NCBI RefSeq assembly: GCF_002940665.1
Contig: NZ_MIGY01000004.1
Coordinates: forward strand, 186,001 to 250,000
DNA from: Xanthomonas arboricola
Lineage (GTDB): Bacteria; Pseudomonadota; Gammaproteobacteria; Xanthomonadales; Xanthomonadaceae
DNA length: 64,000 bases
Reading direction: 5' to 3'
Part shown: positions 36,995 to 64,000 of the stretch, piece after piece
Layout: each line of letters begins with the position of its first letter
Position numbering within the stretch: the first letter of the stretch is position 1
Position numbers and translations under genes: made by a program
Notes under the pieces: generated by a model
The model's input: the letters and a program-made list of their open reading frames with translations, nothing else
Told to the model about the DNA's origin: nothing
Databases searched by the model: none

Positions 36995-37408
36995 GGAGAA
37001 ATCCTTGCAACGACGCGATGCACCAGGATGGTCCCGCCTGCGTGCAGACAAGGTCAGCGCAGGGGCCGGGGGCCTACACATGCAGGCAACGAACGGCTCG
37101 CGTGCAGGTTTGCACAAGCAGGCACGTCAGCGCGGGTTGTCAGCGGTCGCTGCTGGCGGTCATCGCATGCACCGCATGCTCAGGGCATGCTGAAGTGGCC
37201 TGTGTGTCGGGCCGATGCACCTCATCGCTCGGCATTGTCCAAGAGCAGCTGACACGACATCGCAAGCGGTGGTGAGGTGGGTTCTGGCGCGCACTCAGAA
37301 CTGCAGTGTACGCGTGGCACATGCCGCTTCCGAGCAGCGGCGGTGCAGTCGTTTTGCTAGCCGCTCTAGATCCCGGCGCAAATCTCCGTTGCACGGATCC
37401 AACTTGCA
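36995..37408. other. intergenic region without a recognised gene
   Basis: About 414 bases upstream of the aldo/keto reductase and downstream of the phosphodiesterase gene. Several GCATGC-type short palindromes cluster around 37165-37195. I found no coding sequence, RNA gene or terminator I could support. Confidence 0.5.
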
Positions 37409-52520: not shown

Positions 52521-53780
52521 TTGAGACGTTCCGCCACGCGCCCGCTGCGCGCACTCCTGTTTCTTTCCGTGGCGTTGCTTGCCGCTTGCAGCACAACCAA
52601 CACCACCCACAAACCGTTGCCGCCATCGGCGGGCAATCCTGGCGACACAAGTTACTGCATCGGGCGTCTTGCCGTGACGCCCAACCTGCCCCTGCATTTT
52701 CTGGGAAGTTCCGCGCAGTTTTACTGGGGCGACATCGATACCTACCGCGAAGACGCGGTCAGCTATGCGCAGCGCCTGCTGACCGCACAAGCGCCGGCCA
52801 GCGATGGCAAGGTACGCCAGCTGATCAAGCCGGTGGAAACGCTGTCAAAGGACGATGGCAAGGTCATCGTCGCACACGCGGAAGACGCGTTGCCGCTCGA
52901 CCCGAACGTCGTACAGGTCACCGGCTTCGCCCATCGCGACGGCACCACCTTTCGCTTCCAGAAGACGGCGATCAGCCGCCTGCAGCACATCACCGAACGG
53001 CGCACCAAGGAAATCCTGGCCTCGATCACCAGCAGCGCATCCCCCTTCCCGCCAGCGGCACAGTCCCAGCAGGGGTTTTGCGTCATGCACGGCACCGTCA
53101 ATCTGGCACCCGGACACGACTGGCACGAGGCATCCAGAGTCGAGGGAGAATTCACCCTGCAGGAAACGCGCTACCGTTTCAGTCTGCGTTCGCGCTACCT
53201 GCGCTCGCTGTCGTTGAACGAACAGGAAGTGACAAACCAGCGCGATCTGTTGCTCGCACTGGCGGGCGCCGTACCGGACTCCCGCCTCGCGCCGATCAGT
53301 GAACTGTCGGGCGCTGACGGCAATCCATCGCAAGGCAGCGCCAGCCTGCTCGAGATGACGACAGCCGACGGCAAGCAACAGGTCTATGAGTGGCACATGC
53401 CGGCCGTTAATACAGCACCCAATACCCCGGCAACGTTTCTCTACATCTGGCCAGCGTCCGGGCAAACGTCAGCGCAGGACCAGGCCAACTTCAGGCACTG
53501 GGTCGTGGCCCATCCGCAGCAGGCGACACCGCTGTTACAGATAAAGCCGATGGCCAGCAACGGTGAACATCAACAGGCGACGCCAGCAGTAGAAGAGAGC
53601 AGGCTGGTGTACCGGATGCAGCTGCATTACCACGGCGACCAAGCTGCCGGCGGGCGCCATTACGTGATCTACAAGGATGGCCAGAAAGTCGACGATGGGC
53701 GCAGCGATGCCAACGGATTCACCAAGGCACACAATGCCGATTACGACCAGATATGGACAACCAAGGTGCTCAACAAATGA
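52521..53780 (+). CDS. Tli4-like immunity lipoprotein
   Basis: About 419 residues. The signal sequence ends in the lipobox LLAAC. The N-terminal YCIGRLAVTPNLPLHFLGSSAQFYWGDID pattern and the C-terminal SLLEMTTADGKQQVYEWHMP ... FLYIWPASGQT pattern match the two-domain Tli4 family, lipoproteins that neutralise phospholipase effectors of the type VI secretion system in the periplasm. TTG start chosen because AAGGA lies six bases upstream and it directly precedes the basic n-region. No effector, VgrG or PAAR gene adjoins it, so it may be an orphan defence against rivals. Confidence 0.6.
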   Translation: MRRSATRPLRALLFLSVALLAACSTTNTTHKPLPPSAGNPGDTSYCIGRLAVTPNLPLHFLGSSAQFYWGDIDTYREDAVSYAQRLLTAQAPASDGKVRQLIKPVETLSKDDGKVIVAHAEDALPLDPNVVQVTGFAHRDGTTFRFQKTAISRLQHITERRTKEILASITSSASPFPPAAQSQQGFCVMHGTVNLAPGHDWHEASRVEGEFTLQETRYRFSLRSRYLRSLSLNEQEVTNQRDLLLALAGAVPDSRLAPISELSGADGNPSQGSASLLEMTTADGKQQVYEWHMPAVNTAPNTPATFLYIWPASGQTSAQDQANFRHWVVAHPQQATPLLQIKPMASNGEHQQATPAVEESRLVYRMQLHYHGDQAAGGRHYVIYKDGQKVDDGRSDANGFTKAHNADYDQIWTTKVLNK

Positions 53781-53834
53781 GTCCCTGCTTCGGTGCACCA
53801 GCCAAATCTCAAGACCTGCAGTACGTGCAGGCGC

Positions 53835-54170
53835 TCAGCGTATCCAACCAATGGTCTGACCGATGTAGCACCTTCCCCGCATAACCAGGTGCCCACCCGT
53901 CACTTCCGTCTCAAACTCATGAACCGTGTCACCGGGCTGCATGGCGCTTCGTAATTCGGTTTCCTCCTGACTGTGCGGACCTAGCGCCGTAGCTGCCGCT
54001 GGAGGAGCAAGCGCTCGCCCCATCTTCTTGATGCCTGCAGGTAGCGGCTTACAGATGCCAGGTGTAACCAGGGGCGGCCGATGGGTCGCAAGCACTACAC
54101 AACCGGCCACTACGCCTGCGAGTGCAAGTAGCCAGAGCAGGAAACCAGTAGGGCTTGGTCTGTATGCCAT
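53835..54170 (-). CDS. small membrane-anchored protein, unknown
   Basis: 111 residues: one N-terminal helix (GFLLWLLALAGVVAGCVVLA) and a soluble remainder (SAMQPGDTVHEFETEVTGGHLVMRGRCYIG) of beta character. No family recognised. It is the most downstream of seven minus-strand small genes that look like gene cassettes; its own 3' end lacks the CTGACAA motif seen in the others. Confidence 0.55.
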   Translation of the reverse strand: MAYRPSPTGFLLWLLALAGVVAGCVVLATHRPPLVTPGICKPLPAGIKKMGRALAPPAAATALGPHSQEETELRSAMQPGDTVHEFETEVTGGHLVMRGRCYIGQTIGWIR

Positions 54171-54320
54171 AACTATCTAGTGTCTCCAATCAACGCAGAA
54201 GGCCATGAAATCCTCGTCCCTTTTGCTTACCAGGAAACCTGCAATCTGCTGTATCGAGACGACAAAGCTCTCTCCTCACCGCAAGCACAGCAAATCTCGA
54301 TTCACTCCTACTTACGATGC

Positions 54321-54420
54321 GCCGATGACGTAGGAAGACGGGGTGACAGGCGAGCATGGTGTGATAGCCGGGACGTAAGTGCTGCAGCGAGGCAATTCCT
54401 ACCTGAGCGAGTTGTCAGGC
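54321..54420 (-). repeat. candidate attC-like site D (degenerate)
   Basis: On the coding strand it begins at the upstream gene's stop, GCCTGACAACTCGCTCAGG, and contains inner arms TAGGAA (54331-54336) and TTCCTA (54396-54401). The outer right arm (GCCGATGAC on the plus strand) is only partly complementary to GCCTGACAAC. Weakest of the four candidate sites. Confidence 0.4.
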
Positions 54421-54852
54421 GCTCCGTTGATGCTTCCCAGCAAGAAATGCAATTGCCTCTGGATCCTGGCTAGTGATGTGATCCGTGATATGAAACACCT
54501 CCTTGCACCACGGGTGATTCAGTGCCTGGGCCCGGTCGAGCACGGCCCCAAGAAACGTTGCTTTGGACCATGGCGACTCTGCGGCATCGGTGAGCCCAAC
54601 GTTATACGTCCCCTCGGTGGCCCAGAGGCGGAACGGAAATGCAATGCGATCTGCTGGCGAGGCCGATTCACCCCACTCGCCGAGGCTGATCAAACCGCTT
54701 ATATGCTCCGGTTCGTGCCCGGGCGTGTACTGAAGGTAGTAAACAGCGTGCGCGTTACCGTCATCTGTAACGAAACGCGTGAGGCGAATGGTCTCTTTCC
54801 CGCAGCACTCGCAGGAGGAAACGCTTGGTGGTTCAAACTCGATTGCGATCAT
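54415..54852 (-). CDS. cassette-borne small protein with CxxC pair, unknown
   Basis: 145 residues. SSCECCGKETIRLTRFVTDD holds a Cys cluster that could bind zinc, and AVYYLQYTPGHEPEHISGLISLGEWGE follows, a layout seen in small cytoplasmic DUF proteins found in cassette arrays and near immunity genes. The stop codon (GCC TGA CAACTC) falls inside the repeated 3' motif. No function assigned. Confidence 0.65.
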   Translation of the reverse strand: MIAIEFEPPSVSSCECCGKETIRLTRFVTDDGNAHAVYYLQYTPGHEPEHISGLISLGEWGESASPADRIAFPFRLWATEGTYNVGLTDAAESPWSKATFLGAVLDRAQALNHPWCKEVFHITDHITSQDPEAIAFLAGKHQRSA

Positions 54853-54863
54853 ATATTTTTGGC

Positions 54864-54992
54864 GCCTGACACCAGAGGTACGTCGCGCCGCACAGTGGCG
54901 ACGGTATGGGTATGAATGCGTCGTCAGAGAGATCCCAGTGAATCCTTACTTCTCATTCCCAAGTCATGCAATGCGCGTTCGACGTGTCAGGC
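54864..54992 (-). repeat. candidate attC-like site C
   Basis: Exact 9-base inverted repeat GCCTGACAC (left) / GTGTCAGGC (right) bounding 129 bases between two minus-strand genes; inside them, ACGTCGCGC and GCGCGTTCGAC give a second, imperfect pair of arms. Two nested pairs and this length fit the attC range. Matches the core seen at sites A, B and D. Confidence 0.5.
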
Positions 54993-54993
54993 C

Positions 54994-55449
54994 TCATATT
55001 GCACCGGACAAGGAACTGAAGACGGCGGACGGCGCCTGAGAAAGGCAGGCAACCAGAGCCGACCGGCCTGGGGGACCCCCGGGTCCAAGTGACGCATGCG
55101 ACACAATCAACATGGAACCTGCCCAATCCAGGCCAAACCTGCCAGTACCATGGTTGATATAGGCTGCACGTAGCAGATAAGGCTTGGTATGGGCCGGGCA
55201 TGCAAAATCAGGGCGGCCAAACGAGGCCATGTCACTTTGCTCTTGAGCCAGGAAGGCGGCATCTGCAAGCAAGGCTTCTGCGTTCGACAACATTGGCCCT
55301 GAAACCTCAAAAAACGCACTTTCGGGAATCGCAGTCCAATCGCGCCAACTGCCGGCCGAATCAGGCACGCGCTCCAGCCAAGCTTTGGGGACGGCAGCGG
55401 CGGCAGAGGACGATAGGAATATCAATAGAAGTTTCGCCAGATACGTCAT
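54994..55449 (-). CDS. cassette-borne secreted protein, unknown
   Basis: 151 residues with a signal peptide (MTYLAKLLLIFLSSSAAAAVP). The rest, WRDWTAIPESAFFEVSGPMLSNAEALLADAAFLAQEQSD, matches nothing I recognise. The ATG follows immediately after candidate site B, so longer in-frame readings upstream are merely translated repeat. Its stop lies two bases before the left core of candidate site C. Confidence 0.6.
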   Translation of the reverse strand: MTYLAKLLLIFLSSSAAAAVPKAWLERVPDSAGSWRDWTAIPESAFFEVSGPMLSNAEALLADAAFLAQEQSDMASFGRPDFACPAHTKPYLLRAAYINHGTGRFGLDWAGSMLIVSHASLGPGGPPGRSALVACLSQAPSAVFSSLSGAI

Positions 55450-55451
55450 GA

Positions 55452-55513
55452 GGGATAAGCTCCTGAATTGAACCGCGTCGCGAGGTGGGTTCGGCTTGAA
55501 TGAGTTGTCAGGC
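55452..55513 (-). repeat. candidate attC-like site B
   Basis: On the coding strand: CCTGACAACTCATTCAAGCC, GAACCC, a CGCG-rich loop, then GGTTCAATTCAGG. The TCATTCAAGCCGAACCC segment is the form familiar from Xanthomonas integron attC sites, whose conceptual translation gives the recurring NSFKPNP. The distal core (AGCTTATC) is degenerate compared with GCGTTAGGC. Confidence 0.6.
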
Positions 55514-55867
55514 TTTCCAGGAAAGGAGACCAGCAGCGATAAGCTTGAGACGCACCATGGCCTCATCGGTGCCGAGCCTGCAGGCCTTGCCATAGCTGGC
55601 ACGACTCTCGGGGGTCTCAGGATGGATGTGAGCCAGGACGGTCTCGGCCAGTGCGCGATGTGGAGCTACGCGGGCTGCCAGCCGGCCTAGCAGCGCCTGG
55701 CCTGCAGCGTCGGACTCATGCCCGTCCAGTGCGTATGCCCAGTAAAAGTTATCGTACGCTGCACAGAAAGCTCCGAACGACAACGCACCGGCAGCACACT
55801 GCCGCACCAACGCATCGTGGTGATCGAGGGCGAGAACAAGTTCCGGCTCTGATGGGTAAGTGACCAT
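55508..55867 (-). CDS. cassette-borne helical protein, unknown
   Basis: 119 residues, mostly helical (PELVLALDHHDALVRQCAAGAL, FGAFCAAYDNFYWAYALDGHE, GRLAARVAPHRALAETVLAHI). No family recognised. I chose the ATG at MVTYPSEP because GGAG is four bases upstream; a GTG ten codons earlier is possible. The stop (GCC TGA CAACTC) is inside candidate site B. Confidence 0.65.
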   Translation of the reverse strand: MVTYPSEPELVLALDHHDALVRQCAAGALSFGAFCAAYDNFYWAYALDGHESDAAGQALLGRLAARVAPHRALAETVLAHIHPETPESRASYGKACRLGTDEAMVRLKLIAAGLLSWKA

Positions 55868-55930
55868 ATGCTCCAAAGGACCTAATGCCCGCGTCACCTC
55901 GCCGTCGCCGTGGAGGCAGTGCCGCTCACG

Positions 55931-56356
55931 TTACCTGCCATGCGACCGCCTGGATAGCGCCTCCAGCGCCTGTAGGTCACGCGTGGTCTCCAGTGGTGCG
56001 GTCCTTGAGCAACTGCCAAGCATAAGAGGCTGGGAACCGCTCGCGTATACCAACAGATCGGAGCCCAAGAGTGGAACGAAACCATCACTGACAAAATTGA
56101 TTGAATCTTCCGCTGTTGCCTGGACACGGTCTCCTGGCTTCAGCTGACCTTTCCAGACCTTCAGCACGCGAAGCTCGACGAGCCGCACAGCATCACGACC
56201 AAAACCGGGGGCCGCATAGCTCCTCTCAACATGCGCAGAGAACACGTGCTGAGCAGAGGAGTAGGCCTGCGCCGTGGATTGCTGCCCACCGCATGAGATG
56301 GCCACGGCAGGCGCAGCGACGGCGAGGCAAGCAATGAGAACGGCGACTTTCAGCAT
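55931..56356 (-). CDS. cassette-borne secreted protein, unknown
   Basis: About 141 residues: signal peptide LKVAVLIACLAVAAPAVAISC, then a beta-rich domain (AQHVFSAHVERSYAAPG, VELRVLKVWKGQLKPGDRVQATAED, LLVYASGSQPLMLGSCSRTAPL) reminiscent of TIMP/netrin-like folds seen in small periplasmic proteins: Cys near the mature N-terminus, then VxKxWKG. That resemblance is a guess from pattern. ATG at MLKVAV preceded by GGTGG. The junction to the next gene is short and lacks the CTGACAA core. Confidence 0.6.
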   Translation of the reverse strand: MLKVAVLIACLAVAAPAVAISCGGQQSTAQAYSSAQHVFSAHVERSYAAPGFGRDAVRLVELRVLKVWKGQLKPGDRVQATAEDSINFVSDGFVPLLGSDLLVYASGSQPLMLGSCSRTAPLETTRDLQALEALSRRSHGR

Positions 56357-56398
56357 GCTGCCCACCAGGTGAATAGATCTGTGCCACGCCTGGATAGT

Positions 56399-56824
56399 TT
56401 AGCGCTCAACAAGCGTGAACTCATCGCCGACCGTGGCAAATGGCTGGCCCAGCTGGAGCGCCCCACGCGCATCACGCGAGTGCGGTACGAAGACTTCGAC
56501 TGTCTCGCCCGATACGTGCGCCAATCGCGTACAGATTGCATCCGTCATGTCCTCTTGTCCGGGTGGCATCACAGACATCTCCATGCAGATGCAGGCGGCC
56601 CGGATGGCGCCAATGCGGGCAGATTGCGAGAAGGACGCTTGAAGTAGCTTAACCATCTCCGCCGATATGGAACGTTCAACCCCAAGGTCACCAGCCACCT
56701 GAGCAATCGTCCCATCTGGACGCATCAAGACACCGAATGGGATGAACTCGCCATGTGCCATCAGCATGTACTCGGCAAATCCACGCGCCTCGTTACAGAG
56801 GGCATTCAGATCTTCCGAAGCCAC
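56399..56824 (-). CDS. cassette-borne cytoplasmic protein, unknown
   Basis: About 141 residues. LNALCNEARGFAEYMLMAHGEFIPFGVLMRPDG near the N-terminus is a recurring pattern in small bacterial proteins of unknown function; the rest is helix then VSGETVEVFVPHSRDARG. I chose a GTG with AGGA seven bases upstream; an ATG at 56920, directly after candidate site A, would add 32 residues of low coding character. Ends in TAA without the CTGACAA motif. Confidence 0.6.
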   Translation of the reverse strand: MASEDLNALCNEARGFAEYMLMAHGEFIPFGVLMRPDGTIAQVAGDLGVERSISAEMVKLLQASFSQSARIGAIRAACICMEMSVMPPGQEDMTDAICTRLAHVSGETVEVFVPHSRDARGALQLGQPFATVGDEFTLVER

Positions 56825-56920
56825 ACTACCGTCCTGATCCTGCCTGGCACGGGAATGCGACAACACGAACGCCTGGCGATGCTCTGGTCGCCGTCGACTG
56901 CTATCGGTGATCGAATCCAT

Positions 56921-56984
56921 CGCCTGACAGCTTTCATGCGCCACGTCGACAGCCACACAGCGGCCCTGGATGAAGAATTGTCAG
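56921..56984 (-). repeat. candidate attC-like site A
   Basis: Outer arms CTGACA (56924-56929) and TGTCAG (56979-56984), then three- and four-base spacers, then inner arms TTCAT (56933-56937) and ATGAA (56970-56974): the two-box architecture of attC, total 64 bases. On the coding strand it starts at the stop codon of the DUF4262 gene, CTGACAATTC. Confidence 0.5.
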
Positions 56985-57457
56985 TTGCCACTCGCGGCCT
57001 GGCCGAGTACCGGCTGGGCTGCACGGAACTCCGCACTGGACCGAGGGTGCCAGGGAAACAGACCGGACTTGGACGGCCAAACAATCTGGTAAAGCGGAAA
57101 GTCGTCTCCCTGATAGTACCAGCGGGCAAAGCCTACATGCTCGTAGTACTCCGACAATGGCACTTCGGCAGAACAGCAGGAATAGTGGTCAATTAGAGCA
57201 TCTGTTGGTTGTGATAGATCGAGCGGTGTTCCGGCTTGCGCCGCATCCGCAACGATCGAGAGGATCTGGTGCGATACCCTTGAGGACAAGCCGAAGATGA
57301 TCAATTCCGGGTGCCCAAACGTCTGGTACAGGCCAACGGTGAAGGAATACCCGACCTGCTCGCCCTGCTCCATGATGTGGATGCAATGCCATCCATATTC
57401 GGCAACGTCATCAAGTAGCTGCCGCTCACTTTCGTCTACACCAATGCTGCGAACCAT
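56981..57457 (-). CDS. DUF4262 protein
   Basis: 158 residues. GWHCIHIMEQGEQVGYSFTVGLYQTFGHPELIIFGL is the DUF4262 signature; the C-terminal YYEHVGFARWYYQGDDFPLYQIVWPSKSGLFPW completes the domain. Function unknown; the family turns up in accessory DNA and beside polymorphic-toxin genes. First of the cassette-like genes. Upstream of its ATG is a lone core-like GCGCCTGACTG. Its stop (AAC TGA CAATTC) begins candidate site A. Confidence 0.8.
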   Translation of the reverse strand: MVRSIGVDESERQLLDDVAEYGWHCIHIMEQGEQVGYSFTVGLYQTFGHPELIIFGLSSRVSHQILSIVADAAQAGTPLDLSQPTDALIDHYSCCSAEVPLSEYYEHVGFARWYYQGDDFPLYQIVWPSKSGLFPWHPRSSAEFRAAQPVLGQAASGN

Positions 57458-57707
57458 GCTTTGCGCCTGACTGCGACCCGCCCGCCCAAGTGCGGTACGG
57501 CAATATCCTCGCCGAGCGGCTAAGTAAGGTCAATCTGGATTCGCCTGCACAGCCCGCCGGATCCACAGGGGAACGACGCACGCTCGCTGGTGCAGCGTGG
57601 CGTGGCACCGCGACTGGCGCCAGGCCTGGTCTCTTAAGCAGATTCTGGTTACCCGCCTTTCGGAATCCGCTACGCTCAAACCCCAACACGTGGACACGAG
57701 ACAAGCA

Positions 57708-59132: not shown

Positions 59133-59492
59133 TTACAGAGAATCTGTCTGTAGAAGAGCATGAAGATCTTCGGGTCCGGGCGCTATGAGTGACGTTGAAC
59201 CGTTGCATGTGGCTGTGAGCCTGAACTTGGACTTGGTCGATTGATCCTCGATAGCGCGAACACCGTCGATAACGCACAAGACGCCGAACAGCGTTGCATC
59301 GGCCGCCATTTGCAATGCGGCGACAACGTTGGCTTTGTCGGCAGGAGCGAGACCGCGATACCAGACGGACAAGCTAACCAAGGGTTGTTCGGGCCTACGG
59401 CCCGGCGGGGCGTTAAGAAGTTCCACGCAGTCGTGAACGGCTGCGTCCGCGCATTGGGTCTTCAGCCCGCTAACAAAGTCATCTGGAGTCAT
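59133..59492 (-). CDS. cytoplasmic protein of unknown function
   Basis: 119 residues; AGGA six bases before the ATG. N-terminal MTPDDFVSGLKTQCADAAVHDCVELL is helical, WYRGLAPADKANVVAALQMAADATLFGVLCVIDGVRAIED follows, then a short beta tail. The organisation (two helices, WYxxL, then a hydrophobic helix) is seen in small immunity-like proteins, but I cannot name a family. Confidence 0.6.
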   Translation of the reverse strand: MTPDDFVSGLKTQCADAAVHDCVELLNAPPGRRPEQPLVSLSVWYRGLAPADKANVVAALQMAADATLFGVLCVIDGVRAIEDQSTKSKFRLTATCNGSTSLIAPGPEDLHALLQTDSL

Positions 59493-59677
59493 GTTTGGTC
59501 CTGGCTTTTGAAGAGTTCGCTAGCTTCCACCTTCAGACGATCGCGGTGTAGGCGTTTGAATACGGCGGAAAGCGAGCACAGCCATTTATAGCGTATGTGA
59601 GAGCCAACTCGATAGGACGCGGGAACAAGCCTTGCATGTTCTGTTGCGCACCCTACGTGCGACATTAGGACGAACCC

Positions 59678-61302: not shown

Positions 61303-61656
61303 TTACTCTGCAGGTGCGACGGTGACGACCAGCTCGCCATTGCGCATGCGGATGTTAAGTTTGCTGCCGATGGTGAAGCCGAGTTGTTCCAGCCAGCGGC
61401 CGCGCAGGCGCAGCGTGGGGATGCGTTGGTGGCTGTCGGGGTAGTAGCCGTAGCCGACGGTGCAGTGTTGCGGGGCACGCGGGTGGCCTGGGCGGCGCGG
61501 CTTGGTGGGATCGGGGCGGGGCTCGGGGATGGGGGTGCGCTCGAGGTAGGGCCGCGGCGGGATCGAGGGGTCGAGCGAGTGCCAGCCGATCTCGGTGGGC
61601 GGAGGCACCGTGGCGCGCTTGCGCGCTGGCTTGGGACTGGACGTGGGTCGACGCAT
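61303..61656 (-). CDS. SymE-family toxin-like protein
   Basis: 117 residues. Basic, proline-rich N-terminus (SSPKPARKRATVPPPTE, IPEPRPDPTKPRRPGHP), then the SymE/AbrB-like fold: IPTLRLRGRWLEQLGFTIGSKLNIRMRNGELVVTVAPAE. SymE of E. coli is an SOS-induced nucleoid-condensing or RNA-cleaving toxin restrained by the antisense RNA SymR. AGGAGGG is eight bases from the ATG. The long conserved leader upstream, with its own terminator, suggests control before translation. A truncated paralogue lies 0.9 kb away. Confidence 0.75.
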   Translation of the reverse strand: MRRPTSSPKPARKRATVPPPTEIGWHSLDPSIPPRPYLERTPIPEPRPDPTKPRRPGHPRAPQHCTVGYGYYPDSHQRIPTLRLRGRWLEQLGFTIGSKLNIRMRNGELVVTVAPAE

Positions 61657-61885
61657 GGCAAAGCCCTCCTGGACGAACAGGCCCCGCCGCCGGGTGGCGA
61701 CGGGATGTCGGGAGGTTAGAAACCGCACAGAGCCGGCGGGCGTATTTCCCCGAAGGGTGTTGTATTAGCCGCCCTCCCGACGCAGGCATCGCGTCGGTTG
61801 CACCCGCAAGATGCTGCAGGCACAAAAAACCCACCGGTTTGACGGAGGTGGGTACCGCTCTGTGAGGAGTTTCTACGCTCCTTGT
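61657..61885 (-). promoter_or_regulatory. conserved structured leader of symE (copy A)
   Basis: About 229 bases that are roughly 85-90% identical to the leader of the truncated copy. In transcript order: AGGAGCGTAGAAACTCCT hairpin, an intrinsic terminator, a GC-rich hairpin region including GGAGGGCGGCTAATACAACA, and finally the ribosome site. A start-to-gene order with a terminator in the middle is the layout of an attenuator. No known riboswitch class is recognised. Confidence 0.6.
61824..61853 (-). terminator. terminator within the symE leader (copy A)
   Basis: On the minus strand ACCCACC, an 11-base loop region, GGTGGGT, then six T. It lies about 170 bases ahead of the symE start codon. 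Confidence 0.75.
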
Positions 61886-62593: not shown

Positions 62594-62785
62594 TTATTTT
62601 AGGGCACGCGGGTGGCCTGGGCGGCGCGGCTTGCTGGGATCGGGGCGGGGCTCGGGGATGGCGGGGCGGTCGAGGTAGGGCCGCGGCTTGATCGTTGGGT
62701 CGAGCGAGCGCCAGACGACCTCGGTTGGCGGCGGCACCTTGGCGCGCTTGCGCGCTGGCTTGGGACTGGACGTGGATCGACGCAT
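62594..62785 (-). pseudogene. truncated symE copy
   Basis: The first ~61 codons match the intact symE closely (SSPKPARKRAKVPPPTE, RPDPSKPRRPGHPRA), then identity stops at CGTGCCC and two foreign codons lead to TAA. The whole SymE/AbrB-like fold is missing, so it cannot be a working toxin. Its leader, including the ribosome site and terminator, is intact, so it could still be transcribed. It may be a decoy for whatever regulates the leader; that is speculation. Confidence 0.75.
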
Positions 62786-63014
62786 GGCAAAGCCCTCCTT
62801 GACGAACAGGCCCCGCCGCCGGGTGGCGACGGGATGTCGGGAGGTTAGAAACCGAAGACAGACGGCGGGCGTATTTCCCCGAAGGGTGTTGTATTAGCCG
62901 CCCTCCCGAGGCAGGCAACGCGTCGGCTGCGCCAGCAGGAAGCTGCAGGCACAAAAACCCACCGGGATTTCGGGGGTGGGTACCGCTGTCTTAGGAGTTT
63001 CTACGCTCCTTGGC
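62786..63014 (-). promoter_or_regulatory. conserved structured leader of truncated symE (copy B)
   Basis: Second copy of the same ~229-base leader. Both hairpins are kept: AGGAGTTTCTACGCTCCT is identical on the plus strand, and the terminator stem is unchanged. The ~35 bases that loop between terminator and ribosome site carry most differences. The rest of the ~520-base gap to the next gene holds the repeat at 63073 and nothing else I recognise. Confidence 0.6.
62953..62981 (-). terminator. terminator within the symE leader (copy B)
   Basis: ACCCACC, loop region CCCGAAATCCC, GGTGGGT, then a run of five T. Loop bases differ from copy A while the stem is kept. Confidence 0.7.
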
Positions 63015-63125: not shown

Positions 63126-63303
63126 ATTGAACCTAGAGAGATTGCTACTCCAAGCGTATCCCCACCCTCACGCAAATAGCTTTACGTTCCCTCGCTATCC
63201 ATCACTATCGCGCCACTCAGATTCGGGCGCGGTAGTACATGACACAGACGGCACGGGTGACAATTGACCAGCAGCGCGATGCCGCGTGAGTCGCAGGATC
63301 CCA

Positions 63304-63993
63304 ATGATAAAAATTAGCTTCCGAAACCTGCTTCCCTTGTTGCTCCTTTCACTAGCGCTGCCAAGTGCATGTGCTCGCACGCCTGGGGAAGCAAGACGGG
63401 ATGCAGGCACGCCATCTGCTGCCACAGCAACGCCAACCTCTCCGGAGAAAGGCAAGAGCAACGATAACCGTGCCGATCCCGTCGCTGCCAACACCACTCT
63501 GCAAGAGCTGGAGCGCCGGCTGCTGCGCTTCATCGACGGCCTGACAGTGCCAGCGGATCTGGACTACCCACGCATGGAATCTGCACTTGGCATCAAGCTT
63601 GGCCCCCCTTCTGATCCGGCATACCCGTGGCGTGAAGCAAAAGACGTCGCTCTGGCCGATGGCTATGCGCTCTACGCGACACATCGCCCAACGAAGGATG
63701 GCTTCTCACGGATCGAAGTTGCAGTGTCTTTGCCTAACCACGGCGATCCCACGCGTGTGCCTACGTCGACCTGCATCTGGCAAGCCGAAGCATTGTCCAC
63801 AGCGCTTGAACGGATGGGATACACGCGCGGCGGCCAACGGCCGTTTCAGGGTGGATGGCTACGCCAGCATTGGCGCGCGATCAACGGCGGAAGTCAGATT
63901 TTTTCGGTCTCGTTGCTTCTGTATCGAACCAAGGAACAAGGCAGTCAACAAGAGTGCGTTTATAGCGTCAAGATCGATGGAGGCAAGCCATGA
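63304..63993 (+). CDS. secreted, possibly lipid-anchored protein of immunity type
   Basis: About 229 residues. Hydrophobic signal (LLPLLLLSLALPSAC) with a weak lipobox, a Pro/Ser/Lys linker, then LQELERRLLRFIDGLTVPADLDYPRMESALGIKLGPPSD and a C-terminal domain with STCIWQAEALSTALERMGYTRGG and QQECVYSVKI. I recall proteins of this kind beside secreted-toxin genes in xanthomonads, which suggests immunity, but I cannot name the family. AGGA is six bases from the ATG; its stop overlaps the next start. Confidence 0.65.
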   Translation: MIKISFRNLLPLLLLSLALPSACARTPGEARRDAGTPSAATATPTSPEKGKSNDNRADPVAANTTLQELERRLLRFIDGLTVPADLDYPRMESALGIKLGPPSDPAYPWREAKDVALADGYALYATHRPTKDGFSRIEVAVSLPNHGDPTRVPTSTCIWQAEALSTALERMGYTRGGQRPFQGGWLRQHWRAINGGSQIFSVSLLLYRTKEQGSQQECVYSVKIDGGKP

Positions 63994-64000
63994 ACCGGGG
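63990..64000 (+). CDS. start of next gene, cut by window edge
   Basis: ATGAACCGG: the ATG overlaps the preceding TGA, with GGAGG six bases upstream. Only three codons (MNR) are visible, so nothing can be said of the product except that it is translationally coupled to the lipoprotein-like gene. Confidence 0.6.

Follow-up and report, generated by a model that had tools for sequence, protein, structure and literature searches.

A probable decayed, integrase-less cassette array in Xanthomonas arboricola

Genes and boxes of the block

The window analysed here is a stretch of 64,000 nucleotides from Xanthomonas arboricola (C4:186001-250000, in a genome of 4.75 Mb and 11 contigs), and our subject is a block of small genes within it that a sequence-only reading had taken for an array of integron cassettes, i.e. 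genes set between attC recombination sites, lying without an integrase gene (intI) as a cluster of attC sites lacking an integrase (CALIN). Seven minus-strand open reading frames (ORFs), p1 to p7, fill 53835-57457, in agreement with the claim of seven small genes sharing one direction; the start of p6 was reset in this analysis to the ATG following the box. Three relatives recur below, namely L046 (X. arboricola pv. juglandis CFBP 2528, 94-98% identical to the window across the shared parts of the locus), L047 (X. euroxanthea) and L084 (the locus in genome G031). The features are as follows, with scores from the covariance models described in the next section.

53797-57640, minus strand: the whole block, a unit of 3.8 kb, there (once in part) or missing as a unit at the junctions compared
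53835-54170, minus strand: p1, an ORF of 111 amino acids (aa) without a Pfam, NCBIfam or PADLOC match
54409-54420, minus strand: lone R'' box GCCTGACAACTC, containing the p2 stop; no match by the covariance models
54415-54852, minus strand: p2, 145 aa, with conserved CxCC and HITDH motifs; elsewhere a cassette gene
54864-54992, minus strand: attC remnant in the p3/p2 gap; best-scored stretch 54864-54929 (14.6 bits, E 0.37)
54994-55449, minus strand: p3, 151 aa, a degrading gene (deletions in L046 and L047)
55453-55513, minus strand: decayed attC site in the p4/p3 gap, 33.4 bits (36.1 bits by a wider model)
55508-55867, minus strand: p4, 119 aa, its frame open in L046, L047 and G031
55931-56356, minus strand: p5, 141 aa, with 35 homologues; signal peptide probable (judged by eye)
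56399-56920, minus strand: p6, an ORF of 173 aa whose 5' part is replaced in G031
56921-56986, minus strand: remnant in the p7/p6 gap at box level only (CTGACAATTC ... TGTCAGGC); no covariance match at E 10
56981-57457, minus strand: p7, 158 aa, DUF4262 (PF14081, E 4e-39); elsewhere a cassette gene
57463-57473, minus strand: lone R' box ahead of p7, CAGTCAGGCGC on this strand; kept in L046, with one change in L047
Neighbours, plus strand: a gene of 447 aa ending at 53780, and a carbon-nitrogen hydrolase gene

The stop codons of p2, p4 and p7 fall within GCCTGACAACTC, GCCTGACAACTC and CTGACAATTC, respectively, as when the R'' box of an attC site supplies the stop codon, which these GCCTGAC- or CTGAC-type boxes appear to resemble. 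The three stops inside boxes, the repeats and the single box at 57463 had all been described from the sequence and are all present; the fourth gene said to end just before a box is p3, which stops one base, not two, short of GCCTGACAC. Repeats had been held to separate the genes generally, but no box is recognisable in the p6-p5 gap, and the exact GCCTGACAC/GTGTCAGGC pair at 54864-54992, although present as described, is peculiar to the window genome, L046 and L084 keeping the left box but reading GCCTAACAC. At one R'' site both of these relatives read GCCTAAC, against GCCTGAC in the window, and the neat palindrome is therefore partly recent.

GCCTGAC stands at offsets -2, +5 and +5 from the stop in three of the seven genes, against 0.011 expected (P 2e-7, for 16-nt stretches and a motif rate taken outside the block), and GTCAGGC 14 and 18 nt upstream of the start in two of the seven annotated genes (three once the p6 start is moved), where 0.017 would be expected in stretches of 30 nt. 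Both motifs were picked only after they had been seen, and weight is therefore put on independent models. A 21-mer derived from other arrays matched once, at 55493-55513 (no match in 100 shuffles), and a degenerate 12-mer with two mismatches allowed showed no enrichment (13 found, 10.55 expected).

Scoring and folding of the gaps

A first palindrome scan proved too strict: over nine loci it turned up just two distinct sites, and the window yielded none; relaxed versions of it led to the training set of a covariance model. This was built from 36 attC sites (of 67 rows) whose arrays adjoin intI and come from seven genomes other than the window's, ilvD sharing the contig in six of them; own-genome rows, duplicates, rows ending short of R' and some rows simply not picked were omitted. 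A wider model took 150 of 166 matches as its sources, with neither the window nor its orthologues among them. With filters off, the first model, built without the window genome, matched 55453-55513 at E 4.4e-6. An inverted repeat had been reported at 55452-55513, and an attC site does lie there, though not as a clean repeat: its left half is that of an intact canonical attC, and its right half has decayed. The stretch 54864-54929 (13.8 bits by the wider model) was the only other match within the block, the remaining seven matches of the first model up to E 10 lying outside it, and neither model matched the other four of the window's six gaps up to E 10. At Rfam gathering thresholds the window gave three matches, none within the array.

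The orthologous p4/p3 site scored 42.7 bits in L047, 35.5 in L046 and 32.7 in L084, and the p3/p2 site 29.5 bits in L046 and 24.1 in L084; L046 thereby holds two orthologous attC sites with E < 1e-4, the window one significant site and one that falls short. By the published definition, in a survey of Xanthomonas integrons (PMC12444791), a CALIN has two or more attC sites.

Recombination at attC requires the folded bottom strand. The bottom strands of five window stretches folded no better than shuffled sequences (z +0.31, +0.27, -1.16, +0.87 and +0.83), and three orthologous sites gave z -0.48, +0.36 and -1.32, while ten comparison sites of at least 57 bits ranged from z -2.06 to -6.36. The block's sites no longer fold as attC.

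Relatives, gene order and divergence

Homologues in the family supply a second line of evidence. p2 was matched in nine and p7 in 20 of 247 family genomes (own genome included), representing six and 12 of 54 genera, a distribution that is patchy in both cases; the protein database held 89 homologues of p2, 190 of p7 and 35 of p5, many on short contigs. In a scan for attC covering 14 of 29 new p2/p7 loci, the p2 homologues L091 (67% identity) and L093 (63%) and the p7 homologues L100 (65%) and L104 (42%) proved to have an attC site of 57-88 bits directly on either side, and the p2 homologue L094 (47%) two weaker ones of 40 and 31 bits. By homology, p2 and p7 are thus integron cassette genes. 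The arrays L091, L093, L100 and L104 resemble the block in their homologous genes (42-67% identity) and in an R'' box that supplies the stop codon, but differ from it in having sites of 52-92 bits in dense arrays. p2 itself belongs to an unnamed family in whose alignment C14, C16 and C17 are invariant and the HITDH motif is conserved, and which is possibly metal-binding.

These data bear on whether the block was ever an integron array at all, rather than an ordinary cluster of genes in which palindromes arose by chance. The four gaps without a model match at E 10, the unenriched 12-mer and a conserved gene order would all suit an ordinary cluster; the significant match at 55453-55513 would not, and for p2 and p7 such an origin is contradicted by the cassette homologues, making it very unlikely.

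The core boxes raise a different question, as all three recognisable R' boxes (5' ends 54870, 56928 and 57471, minus strand) read GTCAGGC, not GTTAGGC. Among 150 aligned model matches, which include five rows of the block's own site (window and relatives) and two opposite-strand duplicates, GTC stands at R' in one and GAC at R'' in 10, the GAC rows collapsing to about six distinct sites on by-eye comparison. The need to keep a stop codon can explain GAC at R'', but not GTC at R', and the GTC-type R' boxes of the block remain unexplained. Their rarity among the model matches, and their retention in those relatives that have the region, might point to a separate integron type with GTC instead of GTT core boxes, whose integrase is now gone. 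However, the boxes were selected because they match and the model does not see sites unlike its training set; moreover GCCTAAC stands at one R'' in L046 and L084, the best site has a canonical left half, and the cassette homologues L091, L093, L100 and L104 carry TAAC/GTT, so that we regard a separate type as extremely improbable.

The layout of mobile cassettes, in which single genes are gained, lost or reordered, was not borne out. The window, L046 and L047 (three species) share the seven genes in identical order. L046 has lost 430 bp of p3, and L047 lacks 366 bp corresponding to window 54905-55270, i.e. the end of p3 and part of the next site; excision of a single cassette was considered for the p3 gap and rejected because the breakpoints do not lie at attC ends or cleavage points. 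In G031 p7 and the 5' part of p6 have given way to another gene, and the break falls within p6 rather than at a box. Of 35 genus genomes, 13 have a match to the 447-aa flanking gene (two matches being small fragments and one close to a contig end), and at the ten junctions compared the block is present in four (G000, G001, G015 and, partially, G031) and wholly absent in six (G002, G004, G020, G021, G023, G034), its place there being taken by a different stretch of 124-173 bp. The differences among strains are accordingly internal deletions, one replaced end and the presence or absence of the block as a whole; neither single-cassette shuffling nor folding sites, as mobile cassettes would have, were observed. 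Two further features of these relatives may be recorded: the G031 replacement region upstream of the p6 remnant carries GTCAGGC boxes of its own, and the array of L047 is longer at its far end, beside window 53797, by about 220 bases (L047:13304-13524) that partly resemble window 59366-59499 (78%).

A CALIN that is still mobilisable, whose cassettes an intact IntI acting in trans could excise or shuffle, is hard to reconcile with sites that do not fold, with L046 and L047 deletions ending away from attC cleavage points and with a G031 break within p6 rather than at its box. Mobilisation of CALINs in trans is stated in the survey (PMC12444791), one site of the block retains 33 bits, and G031 has a different gene where p7 and part of p6 would be; on balance we consider present mobility very unlikely.

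Ratios of nonsynonymous to synonymous substitution rates (dN/dS; our own NG86 script) were 0.14 and 0.17 for p7, 0.59, 0.10 and 0.23 for p2 (the 0.59 based on three changes), 0.27-0.81 for p1, p4, p5 and p6, and, for p3, 1.05 against G031 and about 0.46 on the 58 codons remaining in L047. Synonymous divergence (dS) pooled over p1, p2, p4 and p5, genes chosen after their values had been seen, was 0.018 (L046), 0.122 (L047) and 0.059 (G031), as compared with 0.094, 0.204 and 0.249 for ilvD, i.e. lower by factors of 5.1, 1.7 and 4.2 (Fisher P 6e-6, 0.009 and 3e-11). Block dS being lower than that of ilvD, spread by homologous recombination is suggested, and the simplest reading of these values is that the p1-p5 part recombined between lineages after their split. 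In the survey, X. arboricola and X. euroxanthea show the joint highest cassette flux (PMC12444791).

The expectation that the genes might include new defence or immunity functions found no backing, no defence family being matched in PADLOC, Pfam or NCBIfam by the seven proteins: none of the seven matched PADLOC or NCBIfam, and Pfam returned DUF4262 (p7) only. When solved structures were searched, the p2, p5 and p7 profiles each returned a single weak match (E 0.38 to 0.91), and promoter and terminator scans found zero and one sites, respectively, under shuffle means of 1.7 and 3.1.

Integrase, genomic setting and history of the block

A complete integron has a functional intI, together with attI, beside its array. 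In a search of the genome with TIGR02249 nothing exceeded the cut-off of 265; the best match (118.8 bits, on contig C3) is a truncated intI adjoining ilvD, covering profile positions 1-110 and 280-315, and the others among the five of eight matches listed cover Xer-type regions. Relative to the full-length G031 protein, the genome's own intI has suffered an in-frame loss of the segment with GSGMR, DGKGGKD and HTLRHSF and has kept QIYTHVL, motifs to which we assign the catalytic residues Arg, Lys, HxxR and Tyr. The best intI match is thus internally deleted and on a different contig, and no intI lies near the block, as in a CALIN.

With 150 of 3414 candidates scored, the attC model matched the genome at least 29 times: 16 in the ilvD array on C3, four at the end and two at the start of C4, one in the block, one on C8 and two on C1, with three opposite-strand duplicates also included. 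The attC sites at the end of C4 prompted the idea that the ilvD array ends in the block; this was ruled out, as block and ilvD are 289 kb (G001) and 233 kb (G015) apart and the block's orientation is opposite to that of the ilvD array. Some 8-11 kb past the block, on the minus strand, C4:251554-254838 (L035:6655-9939) carries four attC sites of 49-81 bits in an array that heads toward the contig end and whose three large ORFs have no Pfam match; C4 ends before any lamG could appear. In G021, where the block is absent, an attC cluster lies about 21 kb from the flanking gene and adjoins a Laminin_G protein; a protein with an Abi_C abortive-infection domain (L079:9434-10177) is encoded within this lamG-side cluster.

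Other features of the window and its continuation lie outside the block. At 61303-61781 and 62602-62910 lie a SymE toxin-like gene (PF08845, E 7e-23) next to an sRNA-Xcc1 match, and another sRNA-Xcc1 match next to a shorter repeat of that region. In the survey no cassette is more widespread than symE/sRNA-Xcc1 (PMC12444791). From 63286 to 64000 and on to L035:6542, on the plus strand, a lipoprotein-like ORF precedes an XVIPCD-domain protein (PF20410, E 4e-31), a pair resembling a type IV secretion effector and the immunity protein that goes with it. A match to the Xanthomonas sRNA sX9 (RF02228) lies at 37247-37322.

Taken together, the block can with high probability be read as a relic CALIN, i.e. 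a cassette array that lacks an integrase and has decayed; it would belong to the lamG-side attC region of Xanthomonas and be distinct from the ilvD integron. For Xanthomonas, CALINs have been published at lamG/secF (Colombi et al. 2025, PMC12444791); they are, like the block, integrase-less cassette genes away from ilvD, and an attC cluster of the block's region adjoins a LamG gene in G021, which fits the published locus. The block, a worn example of an array kind already described in Xanthomonas, differs from them in that its sites are mostly decayed, with one significant in the window. With the ilvD integron (own copy L033) it shares an attC lineage, the left half of 55453-55513 matching the canonical site, whereas the ilvD array has many high-scoring sites and is a separate locus. 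The description of the block as an integrase-less attC cluster therefore holds for its cassette genes, the lack of an integrase nearby and the lack of an intact intI in the genome, but finds no support as regards working sites, given one significant gap in six, no attC fold and a fixed order. Sub-threshold scores at all sites together with conserved gene order had been named as evidence against mobile cassettes; that is largely what was found, save that 55453-55513 scores significantly.

Several observations weigh against this reading. Only one of the six gaps in the window is significant, and the attC identity of the others therefore leans on boxes and relatives. A 43-bit site in the genome's own ilvD array also folds weakly (z -0.63), so that poor folding, or decay, is not confined to the block, while 54864-54992, read as 129 nt, retains its outer and some inner pairs (z -1.16). 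The p2/p7 homologues L092, L095, L099, L101 and L102 gave no attC model match, and not every relative is therefore recognisable as a cassette. As to recombination, besides the post hoc pooling, p6 and p7 of L046 have dS values like that of ilvD (0.089 and 0.100) and show no dip, and the dip in L047 is weak.

If the block is indeed a relic CALIN, its cassettes would have been put together by an ancestral IntI, and the attC sites would have decayed later, R'' boxes outlasting the others where a stop codon depends on them (a TAA-to-TGA change leaves a stop in place). The block would since have been inherited as a fixed unit and exchanged between species by homologous recombination, with p7 and p2 presumably still held by selection and p3 being lost. 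It is conceivable, though we hold it doubtful, that the array has been domesticated, i.e. that the change of core boxes from GTT to GTC and the loss of folding lock the sites, leaving the cassettes as a fixed, partly selected cluster that travels from one species to another through ordinary homologous recombination rather than through an integrase.

The block shows a possible fate of cassette genes after the loss of an integrase: sites fade at unequal rates, some genes stay selected and others rot, and the block as a whole can spread by recombination. These results further suggest that threshold-based integron finders may overlook old arrays, and that homologues within intact arrays provide a useful second test for cassette ancestry.

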